NCBI GenBank assembly: GCA_025463765.1
Contig: JAODBC010000093.1
Location: 62,001-126,000 of the forward strand
DNA from: Subtercola sp.
Lineage (GTDB): Bacteria; Actinomycetota; Actinomycetes; Actinomycetales; Microbacteriaceae
Reading direction: 5' to 3'
Length of the DNA: 64,000 nt
The stretch's first letter is position 1; every line of letters starts with the position of its first letter. The notes below the pieces were generated by a model that did not search any database, was not told the origin of the DNA, and worked only from the letters and a program-made list of their open reading frames with translations. The translations under genes were made by a program, and so were the position numbers. Shown here piece after piece: positions 7,772 to 54,477 of this stretch.

Positions 7772-7815
7772 ACTCTAAGCAGCCCGAACAATGTTGTCAA
7801 GTGATGCTATTGACA
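7772..7815 (-). promoter_or_regulatory. Promoter with operator-like inverted repeat TGTCAATAGCATCACTTGACA; TTGACA-N17-TAGAGT
   Basis: -35 at 7795-7800, -10 at 7772-7777; near-identical arrangement at 36659-36702. Confidence 0.75.
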
Positions 7816-9238: not shown

Positions 9239-9260
9239 CGTGCTCCTTAGCTTGACAACC

Positions 9261-9285
9261 AGTTCAAAACAATTTCAACAACATT
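9261..9285 (-). promoter_or_regulatory. Putative operator/promoter element A (AATGTTGTTGAAATTGTTTTGAACT)
   Basis: 20/25 identical to 21878-21902 and at nearly the same distance from the start codon. Confidence 0.5.
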
Positions 9286-9378
9286 ACAGATCGTATCGGC
9301 GCTGTAAACAGGCCCGGTAGTATGATGGAGATAAGTTCGAGACGATAAGAGCATGAGTAAAGCAAAAGAGGTGTACCG

Positions 9379-9876
9379 ATGACACGAGACCGCACTGCGC
9401 GTACCAGAATCCGCCAGGTCCTTGCGTCCACTGGTCCGATCGTCGATCCGTCGGGTTACGCCACGGGCGCCTTGAAAGACCTGATCGGGTACGAGGGTTC
9501 ACCGGTCGCGTTCATTCAGTTGATCGCGGCGATGGAACGCGATGGGGAGATCGTTCGAGACATTCGCGGAAAACGCACCTACGGCATCACGGCTAGCGCA
9601 TCGACCATCGAATCCCAACTCGCTCAGACCCCGACGCCGGTGCGTATTGTTCGGGCAGAGGAGGTCGAGGGCATCCCCATCGACTACGACCTGCTGGCCC
9701 GCTCGATCGTGCGCGAACTGCTCTCGGTCTTCGCGACACGCCAGACGCAGACCGCTAGCGTGGAGTTCGCCGAGCGTCAGCAGAGCGACTACACACGCCG
9801 ACTCGACGAAGCACGCGAAAAGCTGGATGCCCTGCTGGGTGAAGCCGCGCAGCTCAGCACCGAATACTCGGGCTGA
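9379..9876 (+). CDS. Small winged-helix-like protein with C-terminal coiled coil (W1), paralogue of 36047..36559
   Basis: TRDRTARTRIRQVL...SPVAFIQLIAAMERDGEIVRDIRGKRTYGI; DLLARSIVRELL. Confidence 0.75.
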   Translation: MTRDRTARTRIRQVLASTGPIVDPSGYATGALKDLIGYEGSPVAFIQLIAAMERDGEIVRDIRGKRTYGITASASTIESQLAQTPTPVRIVRAEEVEGIPIDYDLLARSIVRELLSVFATRQTQTASVEFAERQQSDYTRRLDEAREKLDALLGEAAQLSTEYSG

Positions 9877-9885
9877 CGCCCTCGA

Positions 9886-10731
9886 ATGCCCGCAGATCAA
9901 CTGAGCGACCATACGCACGACTGGCTGATAGCGCCGACCTCGTCGGTTTCTGTGGGCGAGTGCACCATTCGCTTTCGTCGACTCGGCGAGCCGGGCGCCC
10001 CCGCACTGCTTCTGATTCACGGTGGGGGTGGTCACGCGGGCTGGTGGCTCGATGTCGCGCCCTTGCTCGCTGGCGATCACGACGTCATCGTCATCGAGCT
10101 CTCGGGGCACGGTGACAGCGGTCACCGCAAAGACTATTCCTTCGACGTTTGGGCTGCCGAACTGGCCAGCGTGGTCCGCGCGACGGGAGTCGCGTCGGTC
10201 GACGTGGTCGGGCACAGCATGGGAGGAATGGTCGCGCTACGCCTGGCGGCCCTCTACCCCGCTCTGGCTCGAAGTCTCGTACTCATCGATACTGCCGTGC
10301 GCCGCACGTCACGGCTCGAGCGCCGGGAGCGTGCGGCGAAGTTCTACGCCACCCTCGACGAGGGCCTAGCCAATTTCCGATTGCGACCGCGCGGAACCAT
10401 CGCCTCGCACGAGACCCTGATGGCCGTCGGGCGGGCAGGCATCACCGAAACCGAGGACGGCTGGCGGTGGAAGTTCGACCCACACGCTGTGCAGAGCTTT
10501 CCGAGCGAAACGCTCGAGCGGCCCGAGGAGGCAATTCGTTCGCGAGCCGCCTTCATTTATGGAGGGCGCAGCGAGCTGACCAATTCTGAAACCGTCGCCC
10601 ATCTCGAACATATGCTCGGAGCCTCGGTGTCGAGCATCGAGATTCCCGAAGCATTCCACCACGTTCCACTCGACTCGCCGCTTCAGACAGTCGACGCGGT
10701 GCGAACACTTCTCGAAGCGATGCGTTCATAA
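9886..10731 (+). CDS. Alpha/beta hydrolase
   Basis: LLIHGGGGHAGWW; nucleophile elbow GHSMGG. Confidence 0.95.
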   Translation: MPADQLSDHTHDWLIAPTSSVSVGECTIRFRRLGEPGAPALLLIHGGGGHAGWWLDVAPLLAGDHDVIVIELSGHGDSGHRKDYSFDVWAAELASVVRATGVASVDVVGHSMGGMVALRLAALYPALARSLVLIDTAVRRTSRLERRERAAKFYATLDEGLANFRLRPRGTIASHETLMAVGRAGITETEDGWRWKFDPHAVQSFPSETLERPEEAIRSRAAFIYGGRSELTNSETVAHLEHMLGASVSSIEIPEAFHHVPLDSPLQTVDAVRTLLEAMRS

Positions 10732-11196
10732 CTGCGCTCTCTGAGGCGAGCCGGCTACTGAGCCGCCAGGAGTGAAGACGTGCAGGGTGGCGGTGCCGGG
10801 GGCGAGAATCTCGCCGCTCTCGTTCTCAAGACCGATCGTGAGGTCGAGTATCTGATCGCCCGTGTCGACCAGCCGGACGACGTCGATGTGCGCGCGAATG
10901 TCGAACATGGCGTCGCGAAGAAGTGGGCGCCGGAACTGCATCGAGACAGAGGCGATGCGGCCGTCGGTGCCGAGCCAGGCGCGAAGAAGGTTATGCGCCC
11001 ACGACCACTGCAGCCGGCCCATCGCGATCGCACCGGGGTAGCCGGCGACCCGGCCCGCTTCGTCGCCCATGTGCAGCGGTATGAACTCATCGTTCACGGC
11101 GGCGAAGCGATTCCACTCCGCAAAGCCAGAAGAGCGCAATCCCGCCGAGAACGTACCGCCGGGTTGTGCGGATTCCGGGGTGCAGTTCGCGATCAT
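10726..11196 (-). CDS. MaoC-like hot-dog protein (small partner)
   Basis: FIPLHMGDEAGRVAGYPGAIAMGRLQWSWAHNLLRAWLG; next to FAS1-like dehydratase partner. Confidence 0.75.
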   Translation of the reverse strand: MIANCTPESAQPGGTFSAGLRSSGFAEWNRFAAVNDEFIPLHMGDEAGRVAGYPGAIAMGRLQWSWAHNLLRAWLGTDGRIASVSMQFRRPLLRDAMFDIRAHIDVVRLVDTGDQILDLTIGLENESGEILAPGTATLHVFTPGGSVAGSPQRAQL

Positions 11197-11213
11197 CGGC
11201 CGGCATACCCTCG

Positions 11214-11741
11214 TCAGTAGCGAATAGACGTGGCGCGTTCGGTGCGAACGAGTTCGCCACGCTGGTTGGTCCAGGTCGCTGTCGTCACGCTGAAGAGCAT
11301 CCGCCCGACACGTCCGTCGCGTTCGCTGTAGCTGGTGAGACGGGACTCCGCGCGAATCACCTCTCCCACCCGAATGTTCTCGCCGTATTGGGCCGAGGTA
11401 CCGCCGTTCAGCTGCGTCGTGAATGCGAGCGGCGGCAGACCGAGCATGCATTCGAGTGCGTCGGGGTCGCCGCGGCGCGATGCCGTCGCCCGCATGCATT
11501 CCGCGACCGCCCACGCAAACGGGTTGAACTCTTCGGGGGCCACGAATTCGACACCGGATGCCTCGGCCGACGCCCTGTCGGTGAACACCGCCGGAGGCGC
11601 CGACGGATAGTACACGGCGAGCGCCCAGCGGCGGATGTCGGACTCGTCGACCGGGTACGAGACCCGCCAGTCGATGAGCGAGCCGACCGCAGCACGCATC
11701 GCCTCAGTGAGAAGCGGCATACTCGCGTACCGGGCGCACAC
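11214..11741 (-). CDS. FAS1-like dehydratase domain / MaoC N-terminal-type protein
   Basis: Y(P/A)VDESDIRRWALAVYYP...GENIRVGEVIRAESRLTSYSERDGRVGRMLF. Confidence 0.8.
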   Translation of the reverse strand: MCARYASMPLLTEAMRAAVGSLIDWRVSYPVDESDIRRWALAVYYPSAPPAVFTDRASAEASGVEFVAPEEFNPFAWAVAECMRATASRRGDPDALECMLGLPPLAFTTQLNGGTSAQYGENIRVGEVIRAESRLTSYSERDGRVGRMLFSVTTATWTNQRGELVRTERATSIRY

Positions 11742-11744
11742 TGA

Positions 11745-12602
11745 TCACAGCGGAAAGCCTTCGTCTTTGAAGGCGCTGTCACGCCACGCGAGAGCGGAGC
11801 GCAGGCCCTCGGCAGTGGCTTTGTTCTGAAATTCTCCGCCGCCGGGGCGGAAGTTTCGGGCGATCACGTACCACGGCACAGCCGCCTGCATCGCCGCACG
11901 CATGCCCATGGTCTCGTACGACTGGTTCAGCGTGAACTTGTTCGCGGCGAGCATGGCGGGGTGGATCTTCGACATCGGGCGCAGTTCGCGCATCACCATC
12001 TCGTCGAGCTCGGCAGCGGGAAAACTCTTCGCGATCCAGCCGATTTCTTCGGCGCGTACACCCGTCACCGACTGGCCAGTGAGCTGCAGGTATTTGGCCT
12101 GCGCCATAGACATCTTCCACGGAAAGTACTCGACATCGGGCGTCGACTGCGCACGTGTCGGCGGGTAGCCGATGATCGTATCGTCGGCCGCGAACACAAT
12201 GTCGCACATCGACATGATCTCCGAGCCGCCGGCCAGGCAGTAGCCGTGGATCTTGGCGACGACCGGCTTCATCAGATCCCAAATGACCATCCAGTCGCGC
12301 AGGGCGCTTCGGGGAAACTGGCCGGTCCACGACTCGTAGAGCGGGCTGTGGTTCCACCCGTCGGGGCGTTCGGGTTCGGCTTCGCCGCCGGCGTAGCTGT
12401 TCATGTCATAGCCCGCACAGAAGGCTTCGCCAGCACCCTGCAGCAGGATGATCGTGACGTCGTCATCGCGTTCGGCGTCGCGCAGGGCGGCGACCAGTTC
12501 GCGGCGGAGTGCCGGACTCAGCGCATTTCGCTTCTCGGGCCTGTTCAGCGTGATAGTCGCGATGCGATCGTCGACGCTGTACAAGATGTTCTCGTATTCC
12601 AT
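11745..12602 (-). CDS. Enoyl-CoA hydratase/isomerase (crotonase) family
   Basis: ITLNRPEKRNALSPALR; FCAGYDMNSY; AGGSEIMSMCDIVFA. Confidence 0.93.
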   Translation of the reverse strand: MEYENILYSVDDRIATITLNRPEKRNALSPALRRELVAALRDAERDDDVTIILLQGAGEAFCAGYDMNSYAGGEAEPERPDGWNHSPLYESWTGQFPRSALRDWMVIWDLMKPVVAKIHGYCLAGGSEIMSMCDIVFAADDTIIGYPPTRAQSTPDVEYFPWKMSMAQAKYLQLTGQSVTGVRAEEIGWIAKSFPAAELDEMVMRELRPMSKIHPAMLAANKFTLNQSYETMGMRAAMQAAVPWYVIARNFRPGGGEFQNKATAEGLRSALAWRDSAFKDEGFPL

Positions 12603-12716
12603 GAGGTGCCCTCTCGTCAGGTGCTGCACAATGCCGAGGGCTGTACGCTCCGACTTGATTGCCTTATCCTAACTACACCACCATTCTAGCAACATTGCAC
12701 CAAGGTAGGTTCAATC

Positions 12717-14042
12717 ATGTCGATAACACTCGAGACACCGAAGTTCCGCCCCCGCGACTTTGTGAGGTACCGCGGTTACCGGCAGGCCGCCATCGGCTGG
12801 CTGGTGAACGGCGTTTCGGTAGGGGCCGTCTACTTCACCATCGGGCCGCTGTTCGCGGCGATGATCCCCGATACGGGGTGGAGCCTGGCCCTGGTGTCAG
12901 CGGCCCTGCTCATCAGGGGTTTTGTTGCAATCGTCTTCGCACCCATGGCCGGGTGGCTGATCAGAGCATTCGGCCTCCGAGTAGTGGTCGTCACCGGTAG
13001 CGTTCTGACCGCCATTTGTTTCGCGGCAACCGGGCTCGTCACCAACCCGATCGTCTTTTGCATCGTTTTCGGCATCGGTCTCTCGTTCGCCGACGCACTG
13101 ATCGGCTATGTACCGGCATCGACGATCATGAGCCGGTGGTTCCTTGCCCGCCGCGGCGCGGTCATGGGCGTCGTCAGCTCGGGCGCCGGTATCGGCGGAT
13201 TCATCTTCGCGCCGCTGATGGCGCTGCTTGTCGCAGGTCTGGGCTGGCGTGGGGCGCTGTTCGTGTTGGGTGCTCTCGTGCTCGTGCTGTGCGTCCCGTC
13301 GGTGTTCTTGAAGAACGGGCCGCGCGATGTCGGTCAGTGGGTCGACGGTGTCGAGGGCCGTGTGATCCCCGAGCAGGGCGAGGCCGACGCGGTCGGAACC
13401 GTGCAGAAGAGCGTCAAGCAGATTGCTCGGTCACCACTGTTCTGGGCGGTGTTCTCGATCTACGGCATTCAGGCATGGGCGCTCGCCGTCTACTCCGCTG
13501 ACCAGGTGCTCTATCTCACGACGATTGGCACCAATGCGGTTCAGGCTTCGACGGCGCTCGGCATCTCCGGCGGCGTGGCGGCGCTGTCGGGCATCTTGTT
13601 CGCCCGGCTGAACGACCGAATCAGCCCCTATTACGTGCTTATCGCCGCGACTGTGCTGATGTCGATCGCCTCGGTGGTCTTCATCTTCGCCAGCTCGCTG
13701 TTCGCGGTGTACGCGTATTCGATTCTCTTCGGCGCCGGGTACGGAATTCTGCTGCCGACCGTCGCCGTCGCGATCGGCAGGTACTTCGGCAGCCTGGACA
13801 TCTCGCGTGCTGTCGGGCTCGGGCTGGGATTCGTGTCGCTGATGGCCGGCATCGGCCCGTTCCTCACCGGCCTGGTGAGCGACGCGACGGGCAGCTTCAC
13901 CATTCCGATCTATGTGGTGGCGGGGTTGCTCATTCTTTCGGTGCTCATCGCCATCGTCGCGCGACCGCCGCGAGAGGCGCTCGCCGCCGTCGAGACCGTC
14001 GATGCAGCCGAGGTGCACGAGAGGCAACCACCCCTGACCTGA
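12717..14042 (+). CDS. MFS transporter (12 TM)
   Basis: Repeated hydrophobic helices; monocarboxylate/oxalate-formate-type MFS features. Confidence 0.9.
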   Translation: MSITLETPKFRPRDFVRYRGYRQAAIGWLVNGVSVGAVYFTIGPLFAAMIPDTGWSLALVSAALLIRGFVAIVFAPMAGWLIRAFGLRVVVVTGSVLTAICFAATGLVTNPIVFCIVFGIGLSFADALIGYVPASTIMSRWFLARRGAVMGVVSSGAGIGGFIFAPLMALLVAGLGWRGALFVLGALVLVLCVPSVFLKNGPRDVGQWVDGVEGRVIPEQGEADAVGTVQKSVKQIARSPLFWAVFSIYGIQAWALAVYSADQVLYLTTIGTNAVQASTALGISGGVAALSGILFARLNDRISPYYVLIAATVLMSIASVVFIFASSLFAVYAYSILFGAGYGILLPTVAVAIGRYFGSLDISRAVGLGLGFVSLMAGIGPFLTGLVSDATGSFTIPIYVVAGLLILSVLIAIVARPPREALAAVETVDAAEVHERQPPLT

Positions 14043-14120
14043 CCGCTTCACTCTCGGTCGGTTGCTGATACGAATTGATAAGATAACTTGAACACAATTG
14101 AATCGAAGGGGAAATCGCCG

Positions 14121-15101
14121 ATGACTGAACCCGAGACCGTCTCTGCCCGACGCAATTACACGGCTGTCGACATCGACGAACTCGCTACGCGATACCGCAC
14201 GTGGGGTCGGTGGGGCGAGGGCGACGAACGCGGTTCGACGAATTACGTCACCCCCGAGACGATTCGCGCGGCCGCCGCATTGGTTCGCAGCGGGAGGGCG
14301 TTCTCGCTCTCGATTCCTTTCGACCGAGAGGGCCCACTCCCCGGGCGCACGGCACGGGTGAACCCTCAGCACATCATGTTCCGGCATGGCGGCGACCTAC
14401 TGGCCGCCGGCGAAGAGGCGATGAGCGGCGGGTTCTCGACCGACGACGGAATCTACATGCCACTGCAAGCGGCAACGCAGTGGGATGCGTTCTGTCACAT
14501 CTTTTACAAGGGCGAGACCTACAACGGGCACGGCCCCGAGTCGGTGACGAGCACGGGAGCGGCACACAACAGCATCACGAACACCAGCGTCACGACCACC
14601 GGCAGGGGAGTGCTGCTCGACTTTCCGCGGCTCTACGGGGTGCCGTGGCTCGAGCCCGGCGACGCGATCCAAGACGTCGATCTCGCTCGTTGCGCAGAAC
14701 ACCAGGGCGTACAGATCGGCGAAGGCGATTTTGTGATCATCCGCACCGGCCACATGCTGCGCCGCCGAGCCGAGGCGTTCTGGGGCGATTACGCGGCGGG
14801 GTCGGCGCCCGGTCTCGGGGTGAGCGCCGCAGACTACCTTCTGCCACGACACGTTGCGGGCGTTGCATCCGACACCTGGGGGCTCGACGCTCTCCCCTAT
14901 GAGTCGCTGCCCGAAGTGAAGTATCCGCTGCACGTTCTCTTTTTGGTCAACGCCGGCGTGCTCATCGGCGAGATGTGGGATGTGGAACCTCTGGCCGAGG
15001 CCTGTGCCGTCGACGGTGTGTACGAATTCTTTCTCACCGCTGCGCCCCTAATGGTGACCGGCGCCGTAGGATCGCCGCTCAACCCGATCGCGATCAAATA
15101 G
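14121..15101 (+). CDS. Cyclase/kynurenine-formamidase-like metal-dependent hydrolase
   Basis: RWGEGDERGSTNYVTPE; ATQWDAFCHIFYKG metal-site-like segment. Confidence 0.85.
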   Translation: MTEPETVSARRNYTAVDIDELATRYRTWGRWGEGDERGSTNYVTPETIRAAAALVRSGRAFSLSIPFDREGPLPGRTARVNPQHIMFRHGGDLLAAGEEAMSGGFSTDDGIYMPLQAATQWDAFCHIFYKGETYNGHGPESVTSTGAAHNSITNTSVTTTGRGVLLDFPRLYGVPWLEPGDAIQDVDLARCAEHQGVQIGEGDFVIIRTGHMLRRRAEAFWGDYAAGSAPGLGVSAADYLLPRHVAGVASDTWGLDALPYESLPEVKYPLHVLFLVNAGVLIGEMWDVEPLAEACAVDGVYEFFLTAAPLMVTGAVGSPLNPIAIK

Positions 15102-15205
15102 GGGCCGCATTACCGAGCAGTACCAATCCGGGATTCTCGGGGCTAGCGCAGCCGCTTATACGGTCGGTCGGTCTCGGCCCTCGACCTCCCAGAGCGACTG
15201 ACCCA

Positions 15206-15664
15206 TCAAACCAAAGGCACGGCGGGTAGTACTGTCTTGGCCGGCCCGAAGACCGGAACGACGCCGTGGTCGCCGACTTCGCGATAGTCGACCGTGAGCG
15301 CCATGCCGACCTCAGCACCCTCGTGGGGCAGATCGACCAGGCGGGTGAGCAGCCGAACACCGCAGTCGAGTTCGACCAGGCCGACCGGGTAGGGCACCTG
15401 CTCTTTCAGCGAAGCGGCGTAGGCACGGCGATAGGTCACGTTGCTCCAGAGGGTGCCCACACCGTCGACCTCTAGCCAGGTGGATGCCCGGGAAAGACAC
15501 TCGGGGCACACGCCGGCGGCGGGCCACCGAATGTAGCTGCACTGGTCGCACTTCTGAAAGAGCAGGTGCCCCTCAGCTGCGCTCTGCCAGAACCGTGTGT
15601 CGTCTTCGGTCGGAAGGTAGGGCGTCTGCGTGCTGACCTCTGCACGGGCCGTCTCGGCGCTCAC
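15206..15664 (-). CDS. DUF35 OB-fold Zn-ribbon protein (thiolase partner)
   Basis: CDQC-x10-CPEC Zn ribbon; GTG start overlaps thiolase stop. Confidence 0.9.
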   Translation of the reverse strand: MSAETARAEVSTQTPYLPTEDDTRFWQSAAEGHLLFQKCDQCSYIRWPAAGVCPECLSRASTWLEVDGVGTLWSNVTYRRAYAASLKEQVPYPVGLVELDCGVRLLTRLVDLPHEGAEVGMALTVDYREVGDHGVVPVFGPAKTVLPAVPLV

Positions 15665-16815
15665 GACCGGTCCAGACTGAAGATCGTGCTCGCTGCCTTC
15701 AGCATTCCGTAGGTCGAACAGTACTGCGCGACCCGGAACGGTTCGAGTTGCCGGGCGCCTGCCTCTCCACGCAGTTGCCGGATCATCTCCACCAGATGCA
15801 GAAAGCCCCACATGTACGCTTCCGACAGCTGGCCGCCATTCGTATTCAGCGGCAGTTTGCCGCCGAACCCGACCGCTCCCGAACGAAACGCGTCGCCTAC
15901 CCCTCCGAACGGCGCGAATCCGTACCACTCGAGCATCTGCATGACCCAGACGCTCGTCGGGTCTTGAATGTACAGCGCCTGCACATCTGCACGATCGATG
16001 CCCGCTGCCGGGTAGATGCGTTCGGCGACCTGCTCGATCCAGGGGCGCATCCACTGATCGGCGTTCTGCCGATCGCGAAGGCCGGTCTGCTGCGCAATAC
16101 CCATCACGTGCACCGGCGTGCCGGTCAGCTCTGCCGCCTTGTCGGCGCTGGCGACGATCAGACACGCACCACCATCAGAGATCATGCAGATGTCGGCGCG
16201 TCGAAGCGGCTCGATCAGGTACGGCTCGGCCAGGTAATCGTCGATCGAGAGGGGTTTACGAAAAATGGCGAGCTCGTTGTCAATCGCGTATTTGCGCTGC
16301 GATACTGCAATCTCGCCCAGGTCTGCCTCGGTCGTACCGTAGAGCTTCTTGTGCCGCTGGAACGCCATGCCCGCGACACCAGCGACATTCAAGAAACCGT
16401 AGACGCTGGCGTCGTCTTGCCTGCCGAGCGGCAGGGTGAATCGGTTGCCCGCACTTCGCTGATTCGTGCCGTAGACAATCGCGATCACGCTCGCGAGACC
16501 CGCTTCGATCGCCGCGACAGCGAGGTGCAACGAGAAGTTGCAGGTGCCGTAGTCGAGGGTCGCACTATACGCCGGGTTGAGCCCGGCGAGTCGGCCGATC
16601 TCGGTGTCGATGCCGAAGCCGCCATACGACTTGCACGTGATGAGCCCGTCGATCTGGGACTTCTGGATGCCCGATTGCTGCAGCGTCACACGGAGTGCTT
16701 CGACGCCGATCTCGTCGGCTGACATGCCGGGCAGTTCGCCTTGTAGGGTATTGCCCACCGCGACGACCGCAGCGCGGCCGCGCACAGCGCCGGGTGCGGA
16801 GGCGAATGCGGCCAT
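15661..16815 (-). CDS. Thiolase-fold protein (SCPx/Ltp2-like, probable aldolase or lipid-transfer thiolase)
   Basis: PLNTNGGQLSEAYMWGF; paired with DUF35. Confidence 0.88.
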   Translation of the reverse strand: MAAFASAPGAVRGRAAVVAVGNTLQGELPGMSADEIGVEALRVTLQQSGIQKSQIDGLITCKSYGGFGIDTEIGRLAGLNPAYSATLDYGTCNFSLHLAVAAIEAGLASVIAIVYGTNQRSAGNRFTLPLGRQDDASVYGFLNVAGVAGMAFQRHKKLYGTTEADLGEIAVSQRKYAIDNELAIFRKPLSIDDYLAEPYLIEPLRRADICMISDGGACLIVASADKAAELTGTPVHVMGIAQQTGLRDRQNADQWMRPWIEQVAERIYPAAGIDRADVQALYIQDPTSVWVMQMLEWYGFAPFGGVGDAFRSGAVGFGGKLPLNTNGGQLSEAYMWGFLHLVEMIRQLRGEAGARQLEPFRVAQYCSTYGMLKAASTIFSLDRS

Positions 16816-19382
16816 CAGATCACCCCTCGCTCGGCGAGCGCGTCGACGTCGGCCGCAGACAGGTCGAGCAGGTCGGAATACACCTCGTAGTTGTGCTCGC
16901 CGTAGGCAGCAGCCGCTCGGCCGACCGGCCCACCGATGAACTGCGGTGTCTCACTCATCGACACCGACGGCGCGGCCACCGGCCAGCGGCCGAAGTTGGT
17001 CGCCTCGAGCTCGGTGAGCCAGTTCAGGTGGCGCAGCTGCGGGTCGCGTTCGTAGCGATCCTGCGCGGTCTGAGCCACACCGGCCGCGATGCCGATGTCT
17101 TGCAGGCGAGCCATCAGGGCGAACGGCTCCTGCTCGCGAGTCCACGACTCGACGAGTTTCTCGAGTTCGCCGCGGTTCTCCAGCCGGGCATCGTGGGTGC
17201 GAAAGGCGGGGTGTTCGAGCCATTCCGGGTGCCCCGCTTCGCGAGCCAGGCGCGTCCACTCGTCTTCGGTGGCGCAAGTGATCGCGATCCAACGGTCGTA
17301 GCCCTGGGTGCGGAAGATGCCTTCCGGCACGGCCGTCGAATATGGCGAGCGGTTGCCGACCCGCGCGAATTCGCGGCCGTTGACCTCGTAATCGAGAAGC
17401 GGCAGCGCGGTGAGGTAGAGACCGACCTCGCTTTGCGACGCGTCGATGGACTGCCCCTCGCCGGTCATCTCGCGGTGGTAGACCGCCGTGAGAATCGCGA
17501 GCGCGAAGCTGTACGCGCCGTACCAGTCGAGATACGAATACCCCCAGCCGGCCGGCGGAAACGGCTCGGGCAGCCCGCTCATGTGAGAGAGCCCCGAGAA
17601 GGCCTGGGCCACCGGGCCGACCGTTCGGAACCGGCCGTAGACGCCCTTGCTGCCCATTCCCGATTGCTTCGCGTAAATTACCGACGGATTCAGTTCGCTT
17701 AGTACGTCATAGCCGAGCCCCCAGGCTTCCATCACACCCGGCGAGAAGCCTTCGGTGACGATTCCGCACTCCCGCACCATCCGTTTGGCGAGCGCAAGTC
17801 CCTCGGGGTGTTTGACATTCAACGAGATTCCGCGCTTGCCAGGGTTCTTGTTGTTGTACTGCGCACCGACTGGGCCGCCCTGGTCGGCGGGCCAACGTGA
17901 GGGCACGGGGCCGGTCGCTCTCTCGACCGCCTCGCGGCCCCCCTCGGGTGCTCCACCACGACGAGGATCGAGGTTCTTATGCCATTCGACCTTAATGACG
18001 TCGGCGCCGAGTGCCGCGAGAAAGCGCGTCGCTCCGGCCGAGGCGAGCATCCAGGTGAAGTCGAGAACGCGCACGCCTTGGAGAGGAAACGGCTTACCGT
18101 GCGGCGACAGCAACTCTTTCGCACGCGGAATCACAAGAGGCGAGGCAGGGGTGCGCGGCGCTGCCGTCAGCACCGCCTGGCGATCTTCGTCGAGCAGGGG
18201 GGCCCGGCGCCCCGTGACCCACTTCGACCCCTCGGTGACCCACTTGCTGGTCGGGTAACGGAACGATCTGCCGAGTTCAGGATGCTCGACGTCGGTGTAC
18301 GAGCAGCGCTGCAGCCAATGCTCGTCTTGAGCGTTCTCGTGCGGCTTGCGAACTGGCACCCACATCAACCCCGCCTGCTGCGCCTCCCGCCACGGAACGT
18401 CGTCGAACATATAACGCCGCACAGTCTGCTCGACGACATCCATGTTGCTCGCGGCGCCGCCCTCCATGCCGGGCAGCACACGCGAGTCTTGCTCTTTCTC
18501 TTCGCTGCCGTCACTGATATGGCCGCCAATACCCCACGTTTCGAGAAACGGGCCGAGCAGTGCCGCGTTACGGGTCATTGCGAGGTACCACCGGCCGTCT
18601 TTCGAGCTGAAGATCGAGCGATGGCGCGAGACGGTGGGCGCCGAGTGCCGGCAGGTCTGGCGGTGGAACGGTGTACGTAACGCGACCCACGACATCAGAT
18701 CGCCCTCGGTGTTCTTCGCGACGGCCTCATGGATGCCACAGGAGAGGTGCTGTCCGCGCCCCGTGCGGTTGCGCGAGATCGCAGCAGCGATGATGGTGAA
18801 GGCCATTTGCTCCCCCGCGATGGCGTACGAGTGCCCGAGCTGGGGGGCGATGGGCGGCGTCTCATAGCGCATCTTCGGGTCGGGGTCGTACCCGTTGTTC
18901 ATGGTGACCCCGCCGAGAGCCAGGTGCACCAGATCAGACGCTTTGTAGTCTTTCAGCGGCCCGTCTTCGCCGAACGGCGTGATGCGGGCGTAGATGAGCC
19001 GCTCATCTTTCGCCCGGAGGTCGGCGCTGCCGATCGCCTTTCCGTCGAGGTAACCCAGTGCGGTCGAGTCGAGTACGACGTCGGCGTCAGCAGCCAGCTT
19101 CGTGAACTCGGCGACTCCGTCTGCGGTCTCGAGGTCGACCACAATGGAACTCTTACCGCGGTTGTACGCCCAGAAATGCAGCGACTTCTCTGGGTCGACG
19201 ATGTCATCGACGAACGGACCGAAGCGACGGCTGCCTACGCCACCCACCGGTTCGATCTTGATCACTTCGGCGCCGAGACCGGCGAGCACGAGACCGGCAT
19301 ATTCGCCTTGGTGGTCGCCGATCTCGAGCACGCGCAATGGCGCGAGCGAGCCGGGTCGTGCTGCTGAGGGTGAAGAACTCAC
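16815..19382 (-). CDS. Double-length CaiB/BaiF type III CoA-transferase
   Basis: Two CaiB repeats (LRVLEIGDHQGEYAGLVLAGLGAEVIKIEP and VRVLDFTWMLASAGATRFLAALGADVIKVE). Confidence 0.93.
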   Translation of the reverse strand: MSSSPSAARPGSLAPLRVLEIGDHQGEYAGLVLAGLGAEVIKIEPVGGVGSRRFGPFVDDIVDPEKSLHFWAYNRGKSSIVVDLETADGVAEFTKLAADADVVLDSTALGYLDGKAIGSADLRAKDERLIYARITPFGEDGPLKDYKASDLVHLALGGVTMNNGYDPDPKMRYETPPIAPQLGHSYAIAGEQMAFTIIAAAISRNRTGRGQHLSCGIHEAVAKNTEGDLMSWVALRTPFHRQTCRHSAPTVSRHRSIFSSKDGRWYLAMTRNAALLGPFLETWGIGGHISDGSEEKEQDSRVLPGMEGGAASNMDVVEQTVRRYMFDDVPWREAQQAGLMWVPVRKPHENAQDEHWLQRCSYTDVEHPELGRSFRYPTSKWVTEGSKWVTGRRAPLLDEDRQAVLTAAPRTPASPLVIPRAKELLSPHGKPFPLQGVRVLDFTWMLASAGATRFLAALGADVIKVEWHKNLDPRRGGAPEGGREAVERATGPVPSRWPADQGGPVGAQYNNKNPGKRGISLNVKHPEGLALAKRMVRECGIVTEGFSPGVMEAWGLGYDVLSELNPSVIYAKQSGMGSKGVYGRFRTVGPVAQAFSGLSHMSGLPEPFPPAGWGYSYLDWYGAYSFALAILTAVYHREMTGEGQSIDASQSEVGLYLTALPLLDYEVNGREFARVGNRSPYSTAVPEGIFRTQGYDRWIAITCATEDEWTRLAREAGHPEWLEHPAFRTHDARLENRGELEKLVESWTREQEPFALMARLQDIGIAAGVAQTAQDRYERDPQLRHLNWLTELEATNFGRWPVAAPSVSMSETPQFIGGPVGRAAAAYGEHNYEVYSDLLDLSAADVDALAERGVI

Positions 19383-19406
19383 TTTTCTCTCCAAGAGGTC
19401 GTCAAG

Positions 19407-20258
19407 TCAGGTAGAAGTCGTCGCCGCCGCGTGCGGCCACTCGAGCCAGTCGGCCAAGGCCGAGCCGAGCACCAGGTCGCGTTCGTCGTCGCTGAGTTGC
19501 GGCGTGTGGTTCACGAAGACATCGACGAGCTCGTCGTAGGGCACCGGCAGCCGCGACAAGTCCGAACCCCAGAAGACTCGTTCGGCGCCGAACCACTCGA
19601 CGAGTCGGTAGACCGCCTCGGTGATGCTGGCGAACGGGTACCGCTCGTCGATGAAGCACGGCAAGGCCGACGCTTTCACCGCGATGCCGGGGTGTGCGGC
19701 GAGTGCCTGTAGCGGTGCGATGGCTTCGGCGAGCGAGGCGCCTCGATGCTCGAGAGCAGCGTGATCGACGGTGATCTTGAGCGCCGGAAACTCGACGGCG
19801 AGCGACTCGTACAAATCGTATCTACCGGGCGCATAGATGCTCAGGGGAACACCATACGCTTCGGAGTTGGCGAAGAATCCGCTGGTCGTCGCTCGACGCA
19901 CTGCACCTTCGACATCACCGCGGTTGAGTGACATGCGAATGCCGCGCATCCCCTCGACCGAGCGCCAGTCGACCAGACCGGCGGCGGCTTCGGGGTCGCT
20001 GACATCATGGCGCAGCAGAGCGCCGAAGCGACTCGGGTCTGCGGCGGCCGTCTCAAGAACGTAGTCGTTCCGCGAACCCTCCCAGGTAGGAGCGAGCAGC
20101 AGCGCGCCGGTGACTCCCGCCGACATCATGAGCTCGCGCACTTCAGGAATTTCGAGCGGATCGCGGTGCGGCGTGATCGCATCGGCAGGCCACGGGCGTT
20201 TCGAGGTCGAAGCCTTCCAGACATGAATCTGCGCATCGATGATCGGGGCGACGGTCAC
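19407..20258 (-). CDS. Amidohydrolase-2 family protein
   Basis: IIDAQIHVWK; VFWGSDLSRLP; TIM-barrel amidohydrolase features. Confidence 0.88.
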   Translation of the reverse strand: MTVAPIIDAQIHVWKASTSKRPWPADAITPHRDPLEIPEVRELMMSAGVTGALLLAPTWEGSRNDYVLETAAADPSRFGALLRHDVSDPEAAAGLVDWRSVEGMRGIRMSLNRGDVEGAVRRATTSGFFANSEAYGVPLSIYAPGRYDLYESLAVEFPALKITVDHAALEHRGASLAEAIAPLQALAAHPGIAVKASALPCFIDERYPFASITEAVYRLVEWFGAERVFWGSDLSRLPVPYDELVDVFVNHTPQLSDDERDLVLGSALADWLEWPHAAATTST

Positions 20259-20267
20259 ATCGGATCC

Positions 20268-21854
20268 TTAGGCGCCGGAGCCGGAGACGCCATCGGCCTC
20301 GCCGGCGTCGGCAACCGCAGCCGCAGCCGCTGTCGCACCCGCACCGACCGCCGCGGCCCGACCCCGTTCGTTCGATGCGTCGCGCAGCGGGAACGCCTCG
20401 AAGTCATGCAGATCGAGCACGGCATACTGCTCGGCGTGGCGCGCCCTGGTGAACGGAAAGATGATGGGCGTGCCGACCTTCTGGCTGTACCAGTTGTCGC
20501 CCTCGGAGTAGGTCGTACCCGGCAGCGCCTCGCGGATCTCCTGCAAGAACGCGTCGGTCGCCTGCGGTGTCGGCGCATAGGCGGCGCCTGTACGTTGCAT
20601 TTCGCCGATCAGTCTCATCAGATACCCGACCGAGTCGCGCAGGGTGGTCGGAATGGTGATCGAGTTGACCGGCGCGAACGGGCCGCACAGAAGAAAGAAG
20701 TTCGGAAAAAGCGGTACGCCGAGCGATTTGAACGCCACGACACCGCCGGCCCAGGCGTCATTGATGTCGAGACCGTCGGCACCGATGACTTTCATCGGTC
20801 GCATGTAGGCGTGCGCGTCGAAGCCGGTGGCCCAGACGATCACGTCGACCTCGTGGAAGTCACCGTTACTGTCGACAATTCCGTTCGCCTCGATATGGTC
20901 GATTCCAGCGAACACGGGATGCACGTTCTGCTGCTGCACCACCCGGTAGTAGTTCGGGGTCTTCGCGATTCTCTTGACACCCAACGGCTCATGCGGCGTG
21001 AACTTCGCCCGCAACTCCTCGTCGGGAATCTCGTCTTCGAGCATCTTGAGAAAGCGCTGCTTCATCATTTCGCGATCAGGCCCCGGTACCAGCCGCCAGG
21101 TCTCGTTGCCGTCGGTCTTCTCGCGGATGACGGCCATCTTGGCGTCGTACCGCTTGGCGAGCCGAGGAATGCGGAACGTGAGTTTCTCGCGGAGCGTGTA
21201 GCGCGGGTTGTCTTTGACCTGCATCCACTGCGGGTGACGGATGAACTGCGTGACGTCGCGCCCCAAGGTGCCCAGTGCCGAGGTGATCTGCACACCGCTG
21301 GACCCGGTGCCGATGACGGCGTACCGGATGCTCGTGTCTTCGAGATCGATCGTGTTGTCCCACTCCGACGAGTGAAACGATTTTCCTTCGAAGCTGTCAG
21401 CACCCGCGATGCGCGGGATGCTCGGCACCCGAAGAAAGCCGGTGGCGGTGACCACGATGTCGAAGATCTCGACATCGCCGTTGTCGAGCGTGAGCGTCCA
21501 CGCGCCGTCAGTCCAGACCGCGGAAGTCGCTTCGGTGTTGTATCGGATGTGCTTGTTGAGGCCCTGCTGAGCGGCGAAGTTCTGCAGATAGCTGCGCACC
21601 TCGGCGCCGGGAGCGTAACGCTTGCTCCAGTGGTGCCCGCGGGCGAACGGAAATTCATAGTTGCGCGTGAGCACGTCGACGTGCAGCCCCGGGTAGGTGT
21701 TGGCGTCCCACGTTCCGCCGGCGGCGGCGCGCTTCTCGTAGACAGTGAATCGGAGCCCGGCCTGCTGCAGCTGGTAGGCCATGAACAGTCCCGACATGCC
21801 GGCGCCGATCACCGCTGCTCTCAAGGGCTGCTTTGACTCAGGCTGTGACACCAC
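20268..21854 (-). CDS. Flavin monooxygenase, Baeyer-Villiger type (BVMO-1)
   Basis: GAGMSGLFMAYQL; FEGKSFHSSEW (FxGxxxHxxxW); GTGSSGVQ. Confidence 0.92.
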   Translation of the reverse strand: MVSQPESKQPLRAAVIGAGMSGLFMAYQLQQAGLRFTVYEKRAAAGGTWDANTYPGLHVDVLTRNYEFPFARGHHWSKRYAPGAEVRSYLQNFAAQQGLNKHIRYNTEATSAVWTDGAWTLTLDNGDVEIFDIVVTATGFLRVPSIPRIAGADSFEGKSFHSSEWDNTIDLEDTSIRYAVIGTGSSGVQITSALGTLGRDVTQFIRHPQWMQVKDNPRYTLREKLTFRIPRLAKRYDAKMAVIREKTDGNETWRLVPGPDREMMKQRFLKMLEDEIPDEELRAKFTPHEPLGVKRIAKTPNYYRVVQQQNVHPVFAGIDHIEANGIVDSNGDFHEVDVIVWATGFDAHAYMRPMKVIGADGLDINDAWAGGVVAFKSLGVPLFPNFFLLCGPFAPVNSITIPTTLRDSVGYLMRLIGEMQRTGAAYAPTPQATDAFLQEIREALPGTTYSEGDNWYSQKVGTPIIFPFTRARHAEQYAVLDLHDFEAFPLRDASNERGRAAAVGAGATAAAAAVADAGEADGVSGSGA

Positions 21855-21877
21855 CGGTCGCTCCTCACCTTCAACAT

Positions 21878-21902
21878 AGTTAAAACTAATTAGAACAACA
21901 TT
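21878..21902 (-). promoter_or_regulatory. Putative operator/promoter element A copy 2 (AATGTTGTTCTAATTAGTTTTAACT)
   Basis: 20/25 match to 9261-9285; shares TGTTCTAATTAG with 25311-25322. Confidence 0.5.
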
Positions 21903-21927
21903 AGCATGACGCTAACGAGCTGCCCAC

Positions 21928-23427
21928 TCAGATCGACGATCCCCATACGGTGCGACGGTACGATTCCGGATCGATTTCGACGTGCGAATTCAGATCGAGA
22001 CGCTGCACGCGGCGCTCGTCGCCGTACACCGGCCAGCCGGGGTCGCCGGTACTGACGAATTGCACCCACGCGCGATGAACCACATCGGCGAGGTTCTGGG
22101 GCGCATCCGCCCCCCGCAATTCGAGACCCCAGGGGTCGTCGAGCGTGTCGAAGACGAACGGAATCTCGAGCGTGTGGAACGCACCGAGCTCACCGTCGTA
22201 GGTCGACGGGCGCCAGGTGAAGTCGTAGAGATAGCTCTCGGCGCCGGCGGCTCGCCGGGCATCCGCGTACCGTGTTGCCGGCACTCGGCAGAACCAGTCC
22301 GACTGAATGGCGATGAAGAGTTCGGCCGGCGTGGCGCCCGGTCGTTGTTCGCGATAGCTGTTCAGAACGTCGAAGGCGGAGTCTCCGATCAACCGTTCGA
22401 CCGACCGCGTCAGTACGTCGTCGCCCATTCCCGAGAGCCCGAACGGGGCCACGAACAGCCCGTACTCGTCGCCGTTCATGCCGATCACGACGTCGATCTC
22501 TGAGCCGGCGCCCGCCGCAGCCGCGGCCAATGGATGCTCGGGCAGGGTCTCGCCGTCGACCACCGGTTGCACGACCAGCCGTGTGAAGCTGGCGAATCGT
22601 GGGTCACCACCCGCTCCCACCCGCGAGATCGTCGCGTTGGTGGCGGCGTGCAGCGCGTCGATCGGAACGGCGAGCAGCGCGTCGACGGTGAGCGGAACGT
22701 CGAGTTCGGCGGCCACCTCTGCCGCGATGAGGGCAGCTTGTTCTGGCGTGTGCACGTGATGGCCATCGCCGCTCTGCGAGATCGCTCGGCGAAAAAGCCC
22801 GCGGGCGGCCGGCATGGCGAGCAGCGTCAGTACCGACATGGCGCCCGCGGATTCGCCGGCGATCGTGACTCGGCCCGGGTCGCCGCCGAACGCCGTGATG
22901 TTCTGCTGTAACCATTCGAGGGCGGCGATCTGATCGAGCAATCCACGATTGGCCGGAGCGCCCGGAATCGCGAGAAACCCGTCGGCCGCGAGGCGGTAGT
23001 TGATAGTGACGGCCACGACGCCGTCGCGCGCGAAAGCCGTACCGTCGAAGGCACTCGTCGATCCAGCGCCGGTGACGAAACCACCCCCGTGAATGAAGAC
23101 GAAGACAGGCGCCGAGCCGCCCGCATCTGGAGTCCAGATGTTCAAGTTGAGACCGTTCGAACCGGGCCGCACAGGGTCTGGCAGCAATCGGTCGATGACG
23201 GCAGAACGCTGGGGAGGCGCCGAGACGGTCGCACCGTATTCCACAGCATCAACGATTCCGTTATGGGGCTCCGGCAGCCGGGGTGCGGTGAAGCGGTCGA
23301 CACCCGCGGGCGCCGCGGCATACGGAATGCCTTTAAAACAGAGAACGCCACCGGCGCGAGACCCGCGATAGTCTCCCTGCACGGTGGTCACCACTGTCGA
23401 ATGATCGCTCGCAGTCTCATCCACCAC
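21928..23427 (-). CDS. Type B carboxylesterase
   Basis: GIPYA; VFIHGGGFVTGAG; GESAGAMSV. Confidence 0.96.
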   Translation of the reverse strand: MVDETASDHSTVVTTVQGDYRGSRAGGVLCFKGIPYAAAPAGVDRFTAPRLPEPHNGIVDAVEYGATVSAPPQRSAVIDRLLPDPVRPGSNGLNLNIWTPDAGGSAPVFVFIHGGGFVTGAGSTSAFDGTAFARDGVVAVTINYRLAADGFLAIPGAPANRGLLDQIAALEWLQQNITAFGGDPGRVTIAGESAGAMSVLTLLAMPAARGLFRRAISQSGDGHHVHTPEQAALIAAEVAAELDVPLTVDALLAVPIDALHAATNATISRVGAGGDPRFASFTRLVVQPVVDGETLPEHPLAAAAAGAGSEIDVVIGMNGDEYGLFVAPFGLSGMGDDVLTRSVERLIGDSAFDVLNSYREQRPGATPAELFIAIQSDWFCRVPATRYADARRAAGAESYLYDFTWRPSTYDGELGAFHTLEIPFVFDTLDDPWGLELRGADAPQNLADVVHRAWVQFVSTGDPGWPVYGDERRVQRLDLNSHVEIDPESYRRTVWGSSI

Positions 23428-23463
23428 GATCTCCCATCGGGCCAGTGCGCTCTAGCCGTGCTG

Positions 23464-23485
23464 CTATTATGTCACAATAATCTTA
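23464..23485. promoter_or_regulatory. Putative element B (CTATTATGTCACAATAATCTTA) in divergent intergenic region
   Basis: 20/22 identical to 33443-33464. Confidence 0.5.
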
Positions 23486-23550
23486 TTGCGATCATGAGGT
23501 CATCCGCCACGCGGAGCCGGGCATCCACCATCGTCAGGAGAGACCACACG

Positions 23551-25272
23551 GTGAAAATTCTCGACCAAACCCAGAAGCTCGACATACTCACCGCGCCCGG
23601 CGGCGCCTTTCCGCTGCGTGATCTCGAGATCGACGGAGTGACACTCAGCACGTTCGACCGGGATCCATATACGCTGCGCGATGCGTTTATCGCCGCGTCG
23701 ACCTTCGGCGATCGTGCCGCCATCGCGTACGAAGACGAGCGTTGGACGTACGACGAGCTCTGGTCTTCCATCGCCACGCTGGCTCATATTCTGCGCACCG
23801 AACTCGGCATCGGCAAAGGCGACCGGGTCGGCATCGCTATGCGAAACTACCCGGAATACGTGTTCATCTTCGGCGCGACCCAGTTGCTCGGAGCGGTCGC
23901 CGTTCCCTTGAACGCCTGGCTGAAGGGGCCCGAACTCGCAGCCCTGATCGAAGAGGCGCGGCCGGTCGCCCTCTTCGCCGACCAAGAACGTCTCGCAGTT
24001 CTGCGCGACGTCGATCTCGCGGCCGCCGGCACCGATACAGTCGTTGCGGTGCGCGCCACGCAACTGCCCGATAGCGTCGTCGACTACCACGAGCTGGCCT
24101 CTCGGATGCCCGCCAGAACCGACGCGCCAGAAGCCGATGTGACGCCTGACGACCTCTCGACCATTCTGTTCACCTCTGGCACCACGGGAAAGCCGAAAGC
24201 GGCGGCCCACAATCATCGCAACCACTCAGCCTCGCTGCTCAACAAGTACATTCGCGCGGTCGGCGTGGAGGTACCAGACGGAGGCGGGGAGACTATCGTG
24301 ACGCCGCCGCCGGCGTCGTGCAAGCTGGTCACCTTTCCGTTCTTTCACATCGCAGGTATCAACACGATGTACAACACCATCTACTCGGGACAACCGATTG
24401 TGCTGATGTACAAGTGGGATCCCGTGAAGGCCGTGCGCCTGGTCGAGACCGAGAAAGTGAACGAGCTTTCCGGGCCTCCCTTCATCGCCCGCACCTTTCT
24501 CGACGCCGTCGTCGAGTCGGGCGGAGATGTGAGTTCGCTGCGCATCATCGGCATGGGCGGTGCCGCGGCGCCCGCTCACATCATCGAACAGGTACGCACG
24601 GTGCTCGGCCCGACGATCGTGCCGCGCACAGGCTACGGCATGACCGAGACCACCTCGGGAGTGGTCGCCATCTCTGCCGGCGATTTCGAGCAGCGCCCCA
24701 ACAGCGTCGGGCGCACGCTGCCGACTGCAGAGATCGCGATCATCGACGCCCAGGGCATCCACTTAGGCGCAGACGAGGTGGGCGAAGTGATCTTTCGCGG
24801 GCCGCAGGTGATTCAGGGCTATCTCGGTGCCGACAACGCGGGAACCTTCGAAGGCGGCTGGTTCCACACCGGCGACTTGGGCCGGGTCGATGCAGAGGGG
24901 TTCGTCTATCTCGTCGGACGCCTGAAAGACATCGTGATCCGCGGCGGCGAGAACATCAACTGCTCGGAGGTCGAGGTGTGCCTCGAGAGCCACGACGACG
25001 TCGTTGAAGCGGTAGTGCTCGGAGCGCCCCATGCGACGCTCGGCGAAGAACTCGTCGCAGTGGTTCGAACTCGGCAGGGCTCTCCGATCGAGCCGGAAGA
25101 CCTTCGCGCGTTCGTGAAGGAGCACCTCGCGTCGTTCAAGGTACCAGCGCGCATCGCCATCATCGACGGGCCGCTGCCGCGAACGCCGAGCGGCAAGATC
25201 ATCAAGCGCGAGGTCATCCCGGAGCTCGACCTGCAGTGGCTGCTCGAAGCGGCTCCGGAGCCGGCTGTTTAG
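23551..25272 (+). CDS. Acyl-CoA synthetase (AMP-binding)
   Basis: LFTSGTTGKPKAAAHNHRN; TGYGMTETTS; GWFHTGDLG; RTPSGKIIKRE. Confidence 0.96.
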   Translation: MKILDQTQKLDILTAPGGAFPLRDLEIDGVTLSTFDRDPYTLRDAFIAASTFGDRAAIAYEDERWTYDELWSSIATLAHILRTELGIGKGDRVGIAMRNYPEYVFIFGATQLLGAVAVPLNAWLKGPELAALIEEARPVALFADQERLAVLRDVDLAAAGTDTVVAVRATQLPDSVVDYHELASRMPARTDAPEADVTPDDLSTILFTSGTTGKPKAAAHNHRNHSASLLNKYIRAVGVEVPDGGGETIVTPPPASCKLVTFPFFHIAGINTMYNTIYSGQPIVLMYKWDPVKAVRLVETEKVNELSGPPFIARTFLDAVVESGGDVSSLRIIGMGGAAAPAHIIEQVRTVLGPTIVPRTGYGMTETTSGVVAISAGDFEQRPNSVGRTLPTAEIAIIDAQGIHLGADEVGEVIFRGPQVIQGYLGADNAGTFEGGWFHTGDLGRVDAEGFVYLVGRLKDIVIRGGENINCSEVEVCLESHDDVVEAVVLGAPHATLGEELVAVVRTRQGSPIEPEDLRAFVKEHLASFKVPARIAIIDGPLPRTPSGKIIKREVIPELDLQWLLEAAPEPAV

Positions 25273-25310
25273 TTGATCTCTGCGTACTACATGACATCGA
25301 GTCGTAGTAC

Positions 25311-25322
25311 TGTTCTAATTAG
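25311..25322 (+). promoter_or_regulatory. Element A core copy (TGTTCTAATTAG) upstream of BVMO-2
   Basis: 12/12 identical to the core upstream of BVMO-1; similar position to start codon. Confidence 0.5.
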
Positions 25323-25349
25323 CTTTTATTTATGTTTCAGGAGGGGCAG

Positions 25350-26987
25350 ATGTCTCAGGTACTCACCGCAGAGTCAACAACACAGCAGCAGACCACGGAG
25401 GTGTTCGACGCCCTCGTGATCGGTGCGGGCACATCTGGCCTGTATGAGCTGTACCTGCTCACCCAGCAGGGCCTGAACGTTCGCGGAATCGAAGCCGGCA
25501 GCAGCGTCGGCGGAACCTGGTACTGGAACCGCTACCCCGGCTGCCGTCTCGACTCTGAGAGCTTCACCTACCAGTACGCCTTTCCCGACGACGTGCTCGC
25601 GACGTGGAACTGGAAAGAGCTCTTCGCGGGCCAGCCCGAGCTCGAGAGTTACTTCAATGAGGTCGCCGACCACTACAACCTGCGTGCGAACATCGACTTC
25701 AATACCCGCGTCGCGTCGATGACCTTCGACGAGCAGAACAACCAGTGGACGGTAACCGCGGAGTCGGGAAAGACGTACATTGCTCGCGTCGTCGTCTCGG
25801 CGACCGGTCTGCTCTCGGCCCCGATCTACCCGCAGATCTCGGGAATGGAGACGTTCACGGGCGAGTCATACCACACCGGGCTCTGGCCCGACAAAGAGGT
25901 CACGTTCTCGGGCAAGAAGGTCATCGTTATCGGCACCGGTGCCAGTGGTGTTCAGGTCATCACCGAGATCGCTAAAGACGTCAGTCACCTCACAGTGTTC
26001 CAGCGCACGCCGAACTGGGTTATTCCGCTACGCAACCGCCCGCTCACCGACGACGACATGCAGCGCATTCGTGCCGGCTATCCCGAGATGTTCCCTAAGC
26101 TCCGTAATACCTGGAGCGGGTTCCTGCACAGCTGGGATCCCAAGCCGACGACCGACTACACCGATGAGGAATTGCGCGAGCGTTTCGAGACGGCCTACAA
26201 CTCGCCCGGTTTCGCGAAATGGTTCGGTCTGCCGAACGACATCGCTTTCGACGACGTCGCGAACCAGAAGTGGTGCGATTTCATGGCGGAGAAGATTCAC
26301 GAGATCGTGCCGGATCCCGAGCTCTCACGACTGCTCATCCCGAACCACCCGTTCGGCGCTAAGCGCGTGCCATGTGGAACGCATTACTTCGAGCTCTACA
26401 ACCAAGACAATGTCGAGCTCCTCTCGCTCGCCGAGCATCCGATTCTCGAGGTCACGTCCACCGGCGTGCGTACGCCAGACGGCGACATCGAGGCCGACAT
26501 GATCGTGTACGCGACCGGCTTCGAGGCTTTCGTGGGGGCGTTGAACCGCATGGATATCACCGGTCTCGGCGGCGCAAAACTCCGCGACAAGTGGGAAGAC
26601 GGCCCGAAGACGTTCCTGGGGCTCCAGGTCGCCGGCTTTCCGAACCTGTTCCTCATCGGCGGCCCGCACGGCAAAGGCGGCCATGGCAACTCGCCGCGCT
26701 GCGCCGAAGGCTCACTCGAGTGGATGGCGCTGCTGGTCGGCAAGCTGGCCCGCAACGAGCTGACACGGGTCGAAGCCACCCCCGAAGCCGAAGCGGAGTG
26801 GACCGAAACGGTCAACGCCTCTGGCATGGGCGGATTCATGGCCAAGACGAAGAACGCGTTCTTCGGAGACAACGTTCCCGGGCGCAAGCGGGCATTCCTC
26901 GCCTACACGGGTGCGCTGCCCGAGTTCGACGAGAGGCTGCGTACCATGGCTCAGAGCGGTTACCCCGGGCTGCAGATCACCGCCTGA
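25350..26987 (+). CDS. Baeyer-Villiger monooxygenase (BVMO-2, cyclohexanone-type)
   Basis: GAGTSGLYELYLL; WNRYPGCRLDSES; FTGESYHTGLW; RBS GGAGGGG. Confidence 0.95.
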   Translation: MSQVLTAESTTQQQTTEVFDALVIGAGTSGLYELYLLTQQGLNVRGIEAGSSVGGTWYWNRYPGCRLDSESFTYQYAFPDDVLATWNWKELFAGQPELESYFNEVADHYNLRANIDFNTRVASMTFDEQNNQWTVTAESGKTYIARVVVSATGLLSAPIYPQISGMETFTGESYHTGLWPDKEVTFSGKKVIVIGTGASGVQVITEIAKDVSHLTVFQRTPNWVIPLRNRPLTDDDMQRIRAGYPEMFPKLRNTWSGFLHSWDPKPTTDYTDEELRERFETAYNSPGFAKWFGLPNDIAFDDVANQKWCDFMAEKIHEIVPDPELSRLLIPNHPFGAKRVPCGTHYFELYNQDNVELLSLAEHPILEVTSTGVRTPDGDIEADMIVYATGFEAFVGALNRMDITGLGGAKLRDKWEDGPKTFLGLQVAGFPNLFLIGGPHGKGGHGNSPRCAEGSLEWMALLVGKLARNELTRVEATPEAEAEWTETVNASGMGGFMAKTKNAFFGDNVPGRKRAFLAYTGALPEFDERLRTMAQSGYPGLQITA

Positions 26988-27044
26988 CGCAAACACGTCG
27001 ACCTGCCTGGTCGAGCATCGTCACGGCCGTAGACTGTGCGAGTC

Positions 27045-28741: not shown

Positions 28742-28938
28742 TTGGCGTACCCGGGTCGTGTCGTATCGACAAGAGGTGCACGATGGCCTCGAAGCGGTGC
28801 CTGCTGCCTTGATCGGGCCTTTCAGCGGCCAGAATTTCGATAAAACTCCCGCATTCGCGCCGCATCGGCTCCCTAATATGTTCTTCCGTCATCCTAACTT
28901 GTTTTGATCATAGCTAGAAGACTATTGTAAAGATCACT

Positions 28939-33442: not shown

Positions 33443-33464
33443 CTATTATGTCTAAATAATCTTA
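33443..33464. promoter_or_regulatory. Putative element B copy 2 (CTATTATGTCTAAATAATCTTA)
   Basis: 20/22 identical to 23464-23485; also in a divergent intergenic region. Confidence 0.5.
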
Positions 33465-33600
33465 GGCCATCATTAGTCTGATCAGCTGCGGGATTGCCGA
33501 GGGCGTTAAGAATCTCAATTCTGTTACAGTGGTCTTCAACACAATAGTAATCCGTCGGCCCGACGCAGCGGCTTACGGCACAGCGACGGCGAGGGAACAG

Positions 33601-36559: not shown

Positions 36560-36658
36560 CGTGTGCTCTCCTCAGGGAGTTCGGCGTATGGGCGTTTCCT
36601 CAGTAATCATCGTATAACTTCGCCCATCACTGTGTCAGTAGTAGGCGGCCAGAGAATA

Positions 36659-36702
36659 TGTCAATGGCATCACTTGACGACTTGCGCGGCGACGCCTACA
36701 GT
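36659..36702 (+). promoter_or_regulatory. Promoter with operator-like repeat TGTCAATGGCATCACTTGACG; TTGACG-N17-TACAGT
   Basis: -35 at 36674-36679, -10 at 36697-36702; same layout as 7772-7815 on the minus strand. Confidence 0.75.
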
Positions 36703-36774
36703 GACGGAGTGGTTGTGATTCGCAAACCCGGCGATCACCGTACGAAGATGTGCGACAAGAAAAGGAGTTCCCGC

Positions 36775-43129: not shown

Positions 43130-43199
43130 GTCTCCTCTTCCCGCTCTGCAATTCTGCTTAAAGAAGATTACAACACGATTGCAAACTTATAGCGCTGCT

Positions 43200-52510: not shown

Positions 52511-54477
<1,967 letters not shown>

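Follow-up and report, generated by a model that had tools for sequence, protein, structure and literature searches.

The window analysed here is a stretch of 64,000 nucleotides (bases 62001-126000 of the 165-kb contig C35) from an actinobacterial assembly of 4.3 Mb and 63% GC, and its genes include those for an ALDH, BVMO-1, BVMO-2, BVMO-3, an esterase, an acyl-CoA synthetase, a double CoA-transferase and crotonases. Close homologues of BVMO-1 are present in Nocardia alni and N. miyunensis, in the genomes G341, G537 and G799, and on the mobilizable plasmid pJCM13574 of Mycolicibacterium madagascariense, the sole one among 72,556 plasmids to carry such a homologue. Orthologous catabolic clusters are found in six other actinobacteria (two Nocardia, one Mycolicibacterium plasmid, G341, G537 and G799); BVMO-1, BVMO-2, the double CoA-transferase, a thiolase and an OB-fold protein are common to all seven loci, in shuffled order, while the ALDH, esterase, acyl-CoA synthetase, an amidohydrolase and crotonases are present in most of them. 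Since the same gene set recurs in all seven loci, the genes behind the shared element described below form one catabolic cluster. They had been taken for unrelated enzymes, which does not agree with the ALDH, both BVMOs, the esterase, the acyl-CoA synthetase, the CoA-transferases and the crotonases staying clustered in other genera. IstB-like and Mu/IS21-type transposase genes are located just past the motif-bearing region, and these, together with the presence of the Mycolicibacterium cluster on a mobilizable plasmid, are signs of horizontal spread. In the literature we found no description of the pathway or of the plasmid.

A preliminary description of this DNA reported a shared leader element in front of the ALDH, BVMO-1 and BVMO-2 genes and a weaker version in front of a crotonase gene. 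The coordinates and sequences of these four sites are correct: the ALDH (9285-9261, minus strand) and BVMO-1 (21902-21878, minus strand) sites are identical at 20 of 25 positions, with their ends 22 and 23 nt, respectively, before GTG start codons, and the 12-bp core TGTTCTAATTAG is common to BVMO-1 and BVMO-2 (25311-25337, plus strand). The extents of two sites needed revision, as the BVMO-2 site truly starts at 25306 and not at 25311, and the crotonase site consists of three repeats (12696-12666, minus strand) and is therefore longer than had been noted. Allowing at most one mismatch, TGTTCTAATTAG occurs only at these two BVMO places in the 4.3-Mb genome, and its reversed control also has two matches genome-wide; because the control is equally frequent, the single 12-mer is weak evidence and was discarded as such. 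Further sites are found at 14.08, 23.47, 28.91, 33.44, 33.52, 43.17, 46.62 and 47.33 kb (Table 1).

Table 1. Sites, candidate regulator genes and other features of the window (window positions; site scores are from the matrix trained without the window)
Feature	Position	Strand	Repeat units or description	Score
ALDH site	9255-9285	-	AATGTTGTT.GA.AATTGTTTT and a third, degenerate repeat; region shared by ALDH and the divergent W gene	14.2
Crotonase site	12666-12696	-	three repeats with 11-bp spacing, AATGTTGCT.AG.AATGGTGGT.GT.AGTTAGGAT	14.0
Cyclase-family site	14080-14099	-	AATTGTGTT.CA.AGTTATCTT; directly before the gene, orientation opposite to it	16.5
BVMO-1 site	21873-21902	-	AATGTTGTT.CT.AATTAGTTT.T.AACTATGTT	17.2
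Site in the divergent esterase/acyl-CoA synthetase intergenic region	23465-23484	+	TATTATGTC.AC.AATAATCTT	18.8
BVMO-2 site	25306-25336	+	AGTACTGTT.CT.AATTAGCTT.TT.ATTTATGTT	14.0 and 14.6
Site before double CoA-transferase gene (28939-31443)	28907-28926	-	orientation opposite	13.6
Two sites between crotonase gene (-) and acyl-CoA dehydrogenase gene (+)	33444-33463 and 33517-33536	+		
BVMO-3 site	43161-43180	-	AATCGTGTT.GT.AATCTTCTT	14.8
Weaker site before epoxide-hydrolase-like gene (45426-46610)	46611-46630	-		10.4
Site about 150 nt upstream of glyoxalase-family gene (46693-47160)	47311-47341	-	AGTCTTGTT.AT.AGTACTGTT.TC.AGTTAGGTT	16.7
W, candidate regulator (165 aa)	9379-9873	+	N-terminal winged HTH, C-terminal helices; divergent from ALDH	
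W, second copy	36050-36559	-	50% identical	
551-aa candidate regulator	27042-28688	+	HTH_17/excisionase-like HTH at about residues 51-84; about 450 residues without Pfam match	
551-aa candidate regulator, second copy	38336-40108	-	58% identical	
TGTCAA-N9-TTGACA	7795-7815 and 36659-36679		inverted repeat	
IstB-like and Mu/IS21-type transposase genes	52514-54477			

The short, AT-rich motif is built from two or three copies of the 9-mer ARTNRTGTT in direct orientation, 11 bp apart. EM on the 11 promoter regions of the window alone gave AATnnTGTTnTAgTtatnTT with an LL of 78.9, compared with a mean of 58.0 (sd 2.4, maximum 61.9) for 20 AT-matched 30-bp block shuffles. Motif discovery in the window alone thus exceeds AT-matched shuffles, the comparison on which the preliminary description had let the shared element stand or fall, and the element stands. 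With 52 promoter regions of orthologous genes from the seven clusters as input, EM returned one dominant motif, ARTNRTGTTNYARTNATNTT (LL 207 vs 67-77 in dinucleotide shuffles), which persisted without the near-duplicate N. alni and against 30-bp block shuffles that keep the local AT content (191 vs at most 96); it was also recovered from G537 alone. On the held-out matrix, i.e. the one trained without the window, the noted ALDH, BVMO-1 and BVMO-2 sites score 14.2, 17.2 and 14.0 and are among the best in the window.

Matches are largely restricted to the cluster. At a score of at least 14 the held-out matrix finds 11 sites in window positions 1-47.6 kb and none in 47.6-64 kb, i.e. 2.3 vs 0 matches per 10 kb. 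The background consisted of 371 kb of sampled stretches from the same genome and a whole-genome pattern search: the former contains nine matches of at least 14, five of them in the two C35 stretches adjacent to the window, and of the 19 consensus matches in the latter 12 fall on C35 (11 matches genome-wide for the reversed-control pattern). To the left of the window (C35:41146-59615; L081, L082) more good sites are located near ALDH, transporter, periplasmic-binding, P450 and SDR genes, and the regulon is therefore wider than the window. Cluster specificity, conservation in the six other clusters and the 11-bp-period direct repeat all support the earlier suggestion of co-regulation by one operator or promoter class.

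For the periodicity analysis, we cut the matrix down to its first nine positions (ARTNRTGTT) and, starting at the best site in each promoter, scored the DNA at successive offsets. The next copy of the 9-mer peaks at exactly +11 on the same strand (z 6.7-8.6, a value reached by 0 of 2000 shuffles); this is the only strong peak on either strand and is followed by a second one at +22 (z 3.1-5.0). The element is a head-to-tail row of 9-mers spaced one helical turn. A palindrome, CTAAT-N9-ATTAG, fits the BVMO-1 site of the window; it was rejected, with no trend across the promoters and no opposite-strand offset having a peak comparable to that at +11.

A -10-like hexamer, TANNNT, begins at an offset of 24-27 nt, counted from the first base of repeat 1, in nine of 23 promoters (0.81 expected) and was seen only twice elsewhere between offsets 20 and 49. 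Only these 23, which belong to orthologous genes and carry a site on the same strand as the gene, were used, because offsets over all 94 sites are confounded by TATGTT inside the repeat. BVMO-1 and BVMO-2 of the window are two of the nine; here the supposed -10 box, TATGTT, coincides with the third repeat, may be just that, and would give a very short leader, and the third unit of the BVMO-1 site can be read either way. The ALDH site of the window has no TANNNT at offset 24-27. Taking TANNNT as the -10 box gives a predicted position of roughly -38 to -30 for repeat 1 and of roughly -27 to -19 for repeat 2, so that the two together would span about -38 to -19. With the repeats upstream of such a box in many promoters, they would mostly be untranscribed promoter DNA, and the term "leader" is probably wrong. 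The best site and the gene are on opposite strands in 10 of 32 promoters, and the sites at 14.08 and 28.91 kb of the window are directed away from the gene closest to them.

Two uncharacterised regulator families, a 551-aa HTH protein and the 165-aa winged-helix protein W, accompany all seven clusters. The 551-aa protein is present in exactly the three of 401 Nocardia-family genomes that hold BVMO-1, and on one of 72,556 plasmids, pJCM13574. Among Pfam families HTH_17 fits its HTH best and most consistently, though weakly (all seven members match, with 7.7e-6 as the best E value; for the member whose score was compared, the match stays under Pfam's cut-off); the match to TIGR01764 excise has an E value of 0.0098, and the recognition stretch GVSRQAVNQWVR is identical across seven aligned 551-aa proteins. 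Its structure model is poor (mean pLDDT 41; AF2, 3-row alignment), while W is modelled as a winged HTH with pLDDT 70-78 over much of the protein and resembles MarR/ArsR-type folds at low confidence, with no match below E 0.001. PDB searches with both regulators found no relative. The regulatory genes of the window form diverged pairs (Table 1; 36658-37056 is also listed with them), N. alni likewise has two copies of each regulator, and the pairs are what duplication of a regulatory block would produce. A second element, the inverted repeat TGTCAA-N9-TTGACA (TGTCAATGGCATCACTTGACA), is found in each of the seven clusters beside genes for regulators or small proteins (in addition to the window, L024, L025, L026, L103, L106, L109 and L110). 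It is absent, at up to one mismatch, from 311 kb of other DNA of the same genome and probably serves the second regulator as its operator.

Several known systems use direct repeats. In the pho box, OmpR/PhoB-type response regulators bind tandem direct repeats with an 11-bp period that replace the -35 element, and the present repeats are alike in arrangement and period; no Trans_reg_C (PF00486) match was found on the contig of the window (G000:C35) or on the whole Mycolicibacterium plasmid. SARPs are known activators whose 11-bp direct repeats overlap the -35 region (PMC10936776). The sites described here resemble the SARP (AfsR/PimR-type) boxes of Streptomyces in the 11-bp period, the two or three units, the predicted overlap with -35 and the predicted position just upstream of -10 (PMC10936776, PMC5930380), but the repeat ARTNRTGTT differs and the cluster is catabolic. 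Matches to the BTAD/SARP activator domain (PF03704) were absent from G000:C35, the Mycolicibacterium plasmid, G149:C222 and G537:C3; the one match on G341:C58 is about 50 kb away and not shared. BldC, an HTH_17 protein, binds short AT-rich direct repeats head to tail with one protomer per turn (PMC5859096, PMC11963761), and HTH_17 is also the family that the HTH of the 551-aa protein matches best. BldC has 68 aa and 9-bp AATTNNNNC units, whereas the candidate binder here has 551 aa, including a large C-terminal part without Pfam match, and the period is 11 bp.

Taken together, our data suggest that an activator encoded by the cluster probably acts head to tail on the tandem repeats of all pathway promoters. 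Bound in this way the regulator would take over the -35 region and recruit RNA polymerase in the presence of a pathway substrate or of the corresponding CoA derivative, so that the whole pathway would be switched on together by a regulator made by the cluster itself. The likeliest binder is the 551-aa HTH_17-like protein, for which we see roughly an even chance on the basis of its co-occurrence with the clusters and its weak HTH matches; W comes next, with a distinctly smaller one.

The main rival keeps the same tandem-repeat operator and makes the regulator a repressor that would cover the promoter until released by an effector, in the manner of many catabolic repressors. Overlap of the repeats with the core promoter, up to the probable -10 box in BVMO-1 and BVMO-2 of the window, speaks for it; both site orientations occur in divergent regions, which would suit a roadblock; and the MarR/ArsR-like folds that the modelled W domain may share are often those of repressors. 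However, repressor operators are usually palindromic, while same-strand 11-bp repeats dominate here, and the fixed distance to the -10 box suggests that the site helps to position RNA polymerase. On balance we regard repression as unlikely, though it is the strongest competitor of activation.

It is considerably less probable that the motif is a promoter element only, read without a dedicated regulator, either as an extended -10 (TGTTNTAAT) or as a -35 box TTGTGT 16-18 bp from the -10. TGTTATAAT does resemble an extended -10, and TTGTGT precedes TANNNT by about 16-18 bp in several promoters. The most conserved bases (ARTNRTGTT) nevertheless differ from a -10 or -35 box and the motif recurs at +11 and +22; moreover, a generic sigma-70 element would be expected at promoters across the genome, whereas the matches concentrate on C35 and the motif is nearly absent from the remaining genome. 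Conserved bases, rarity and the +11/+22 repeats led us to reject an extended -10 as the full explanation. Chance similarity of AT-rich intergenic DNA would fit the 12-mer TGTTCTAATTAG, which on its own is no commoner than its reversed control, but the AT-matched block shuffles, the held-out training, the conservation and the periodicity all rule it out, and we give it hardly any weight.

Returning to the activator, we propose, tentatively and at rather less than even confidence, that the 551-aa proteins constitute a new family of large regulators, with an excisionase-like HTH and about 450 residues of unknown fold, which recognise tandem repeats of 11-bp period placed as in SARP boxes and activate a Baeyer-Villiger/CoA catabolic regulon that has spread horizontally among actinobacteria. 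If true, recognition of such repeats would extend to a protein family with no relation to the SARP or OmpR regulators, and the system would be a case in which direct-repeat binding by regulators of another class can be tested. The regulon is defined by a precise operator and some twelve target promoters in a single genome, with six more clusters to compare and two regulator families without described function, and it gives a direct handle on an undescribed, mobile catabolic pathway.
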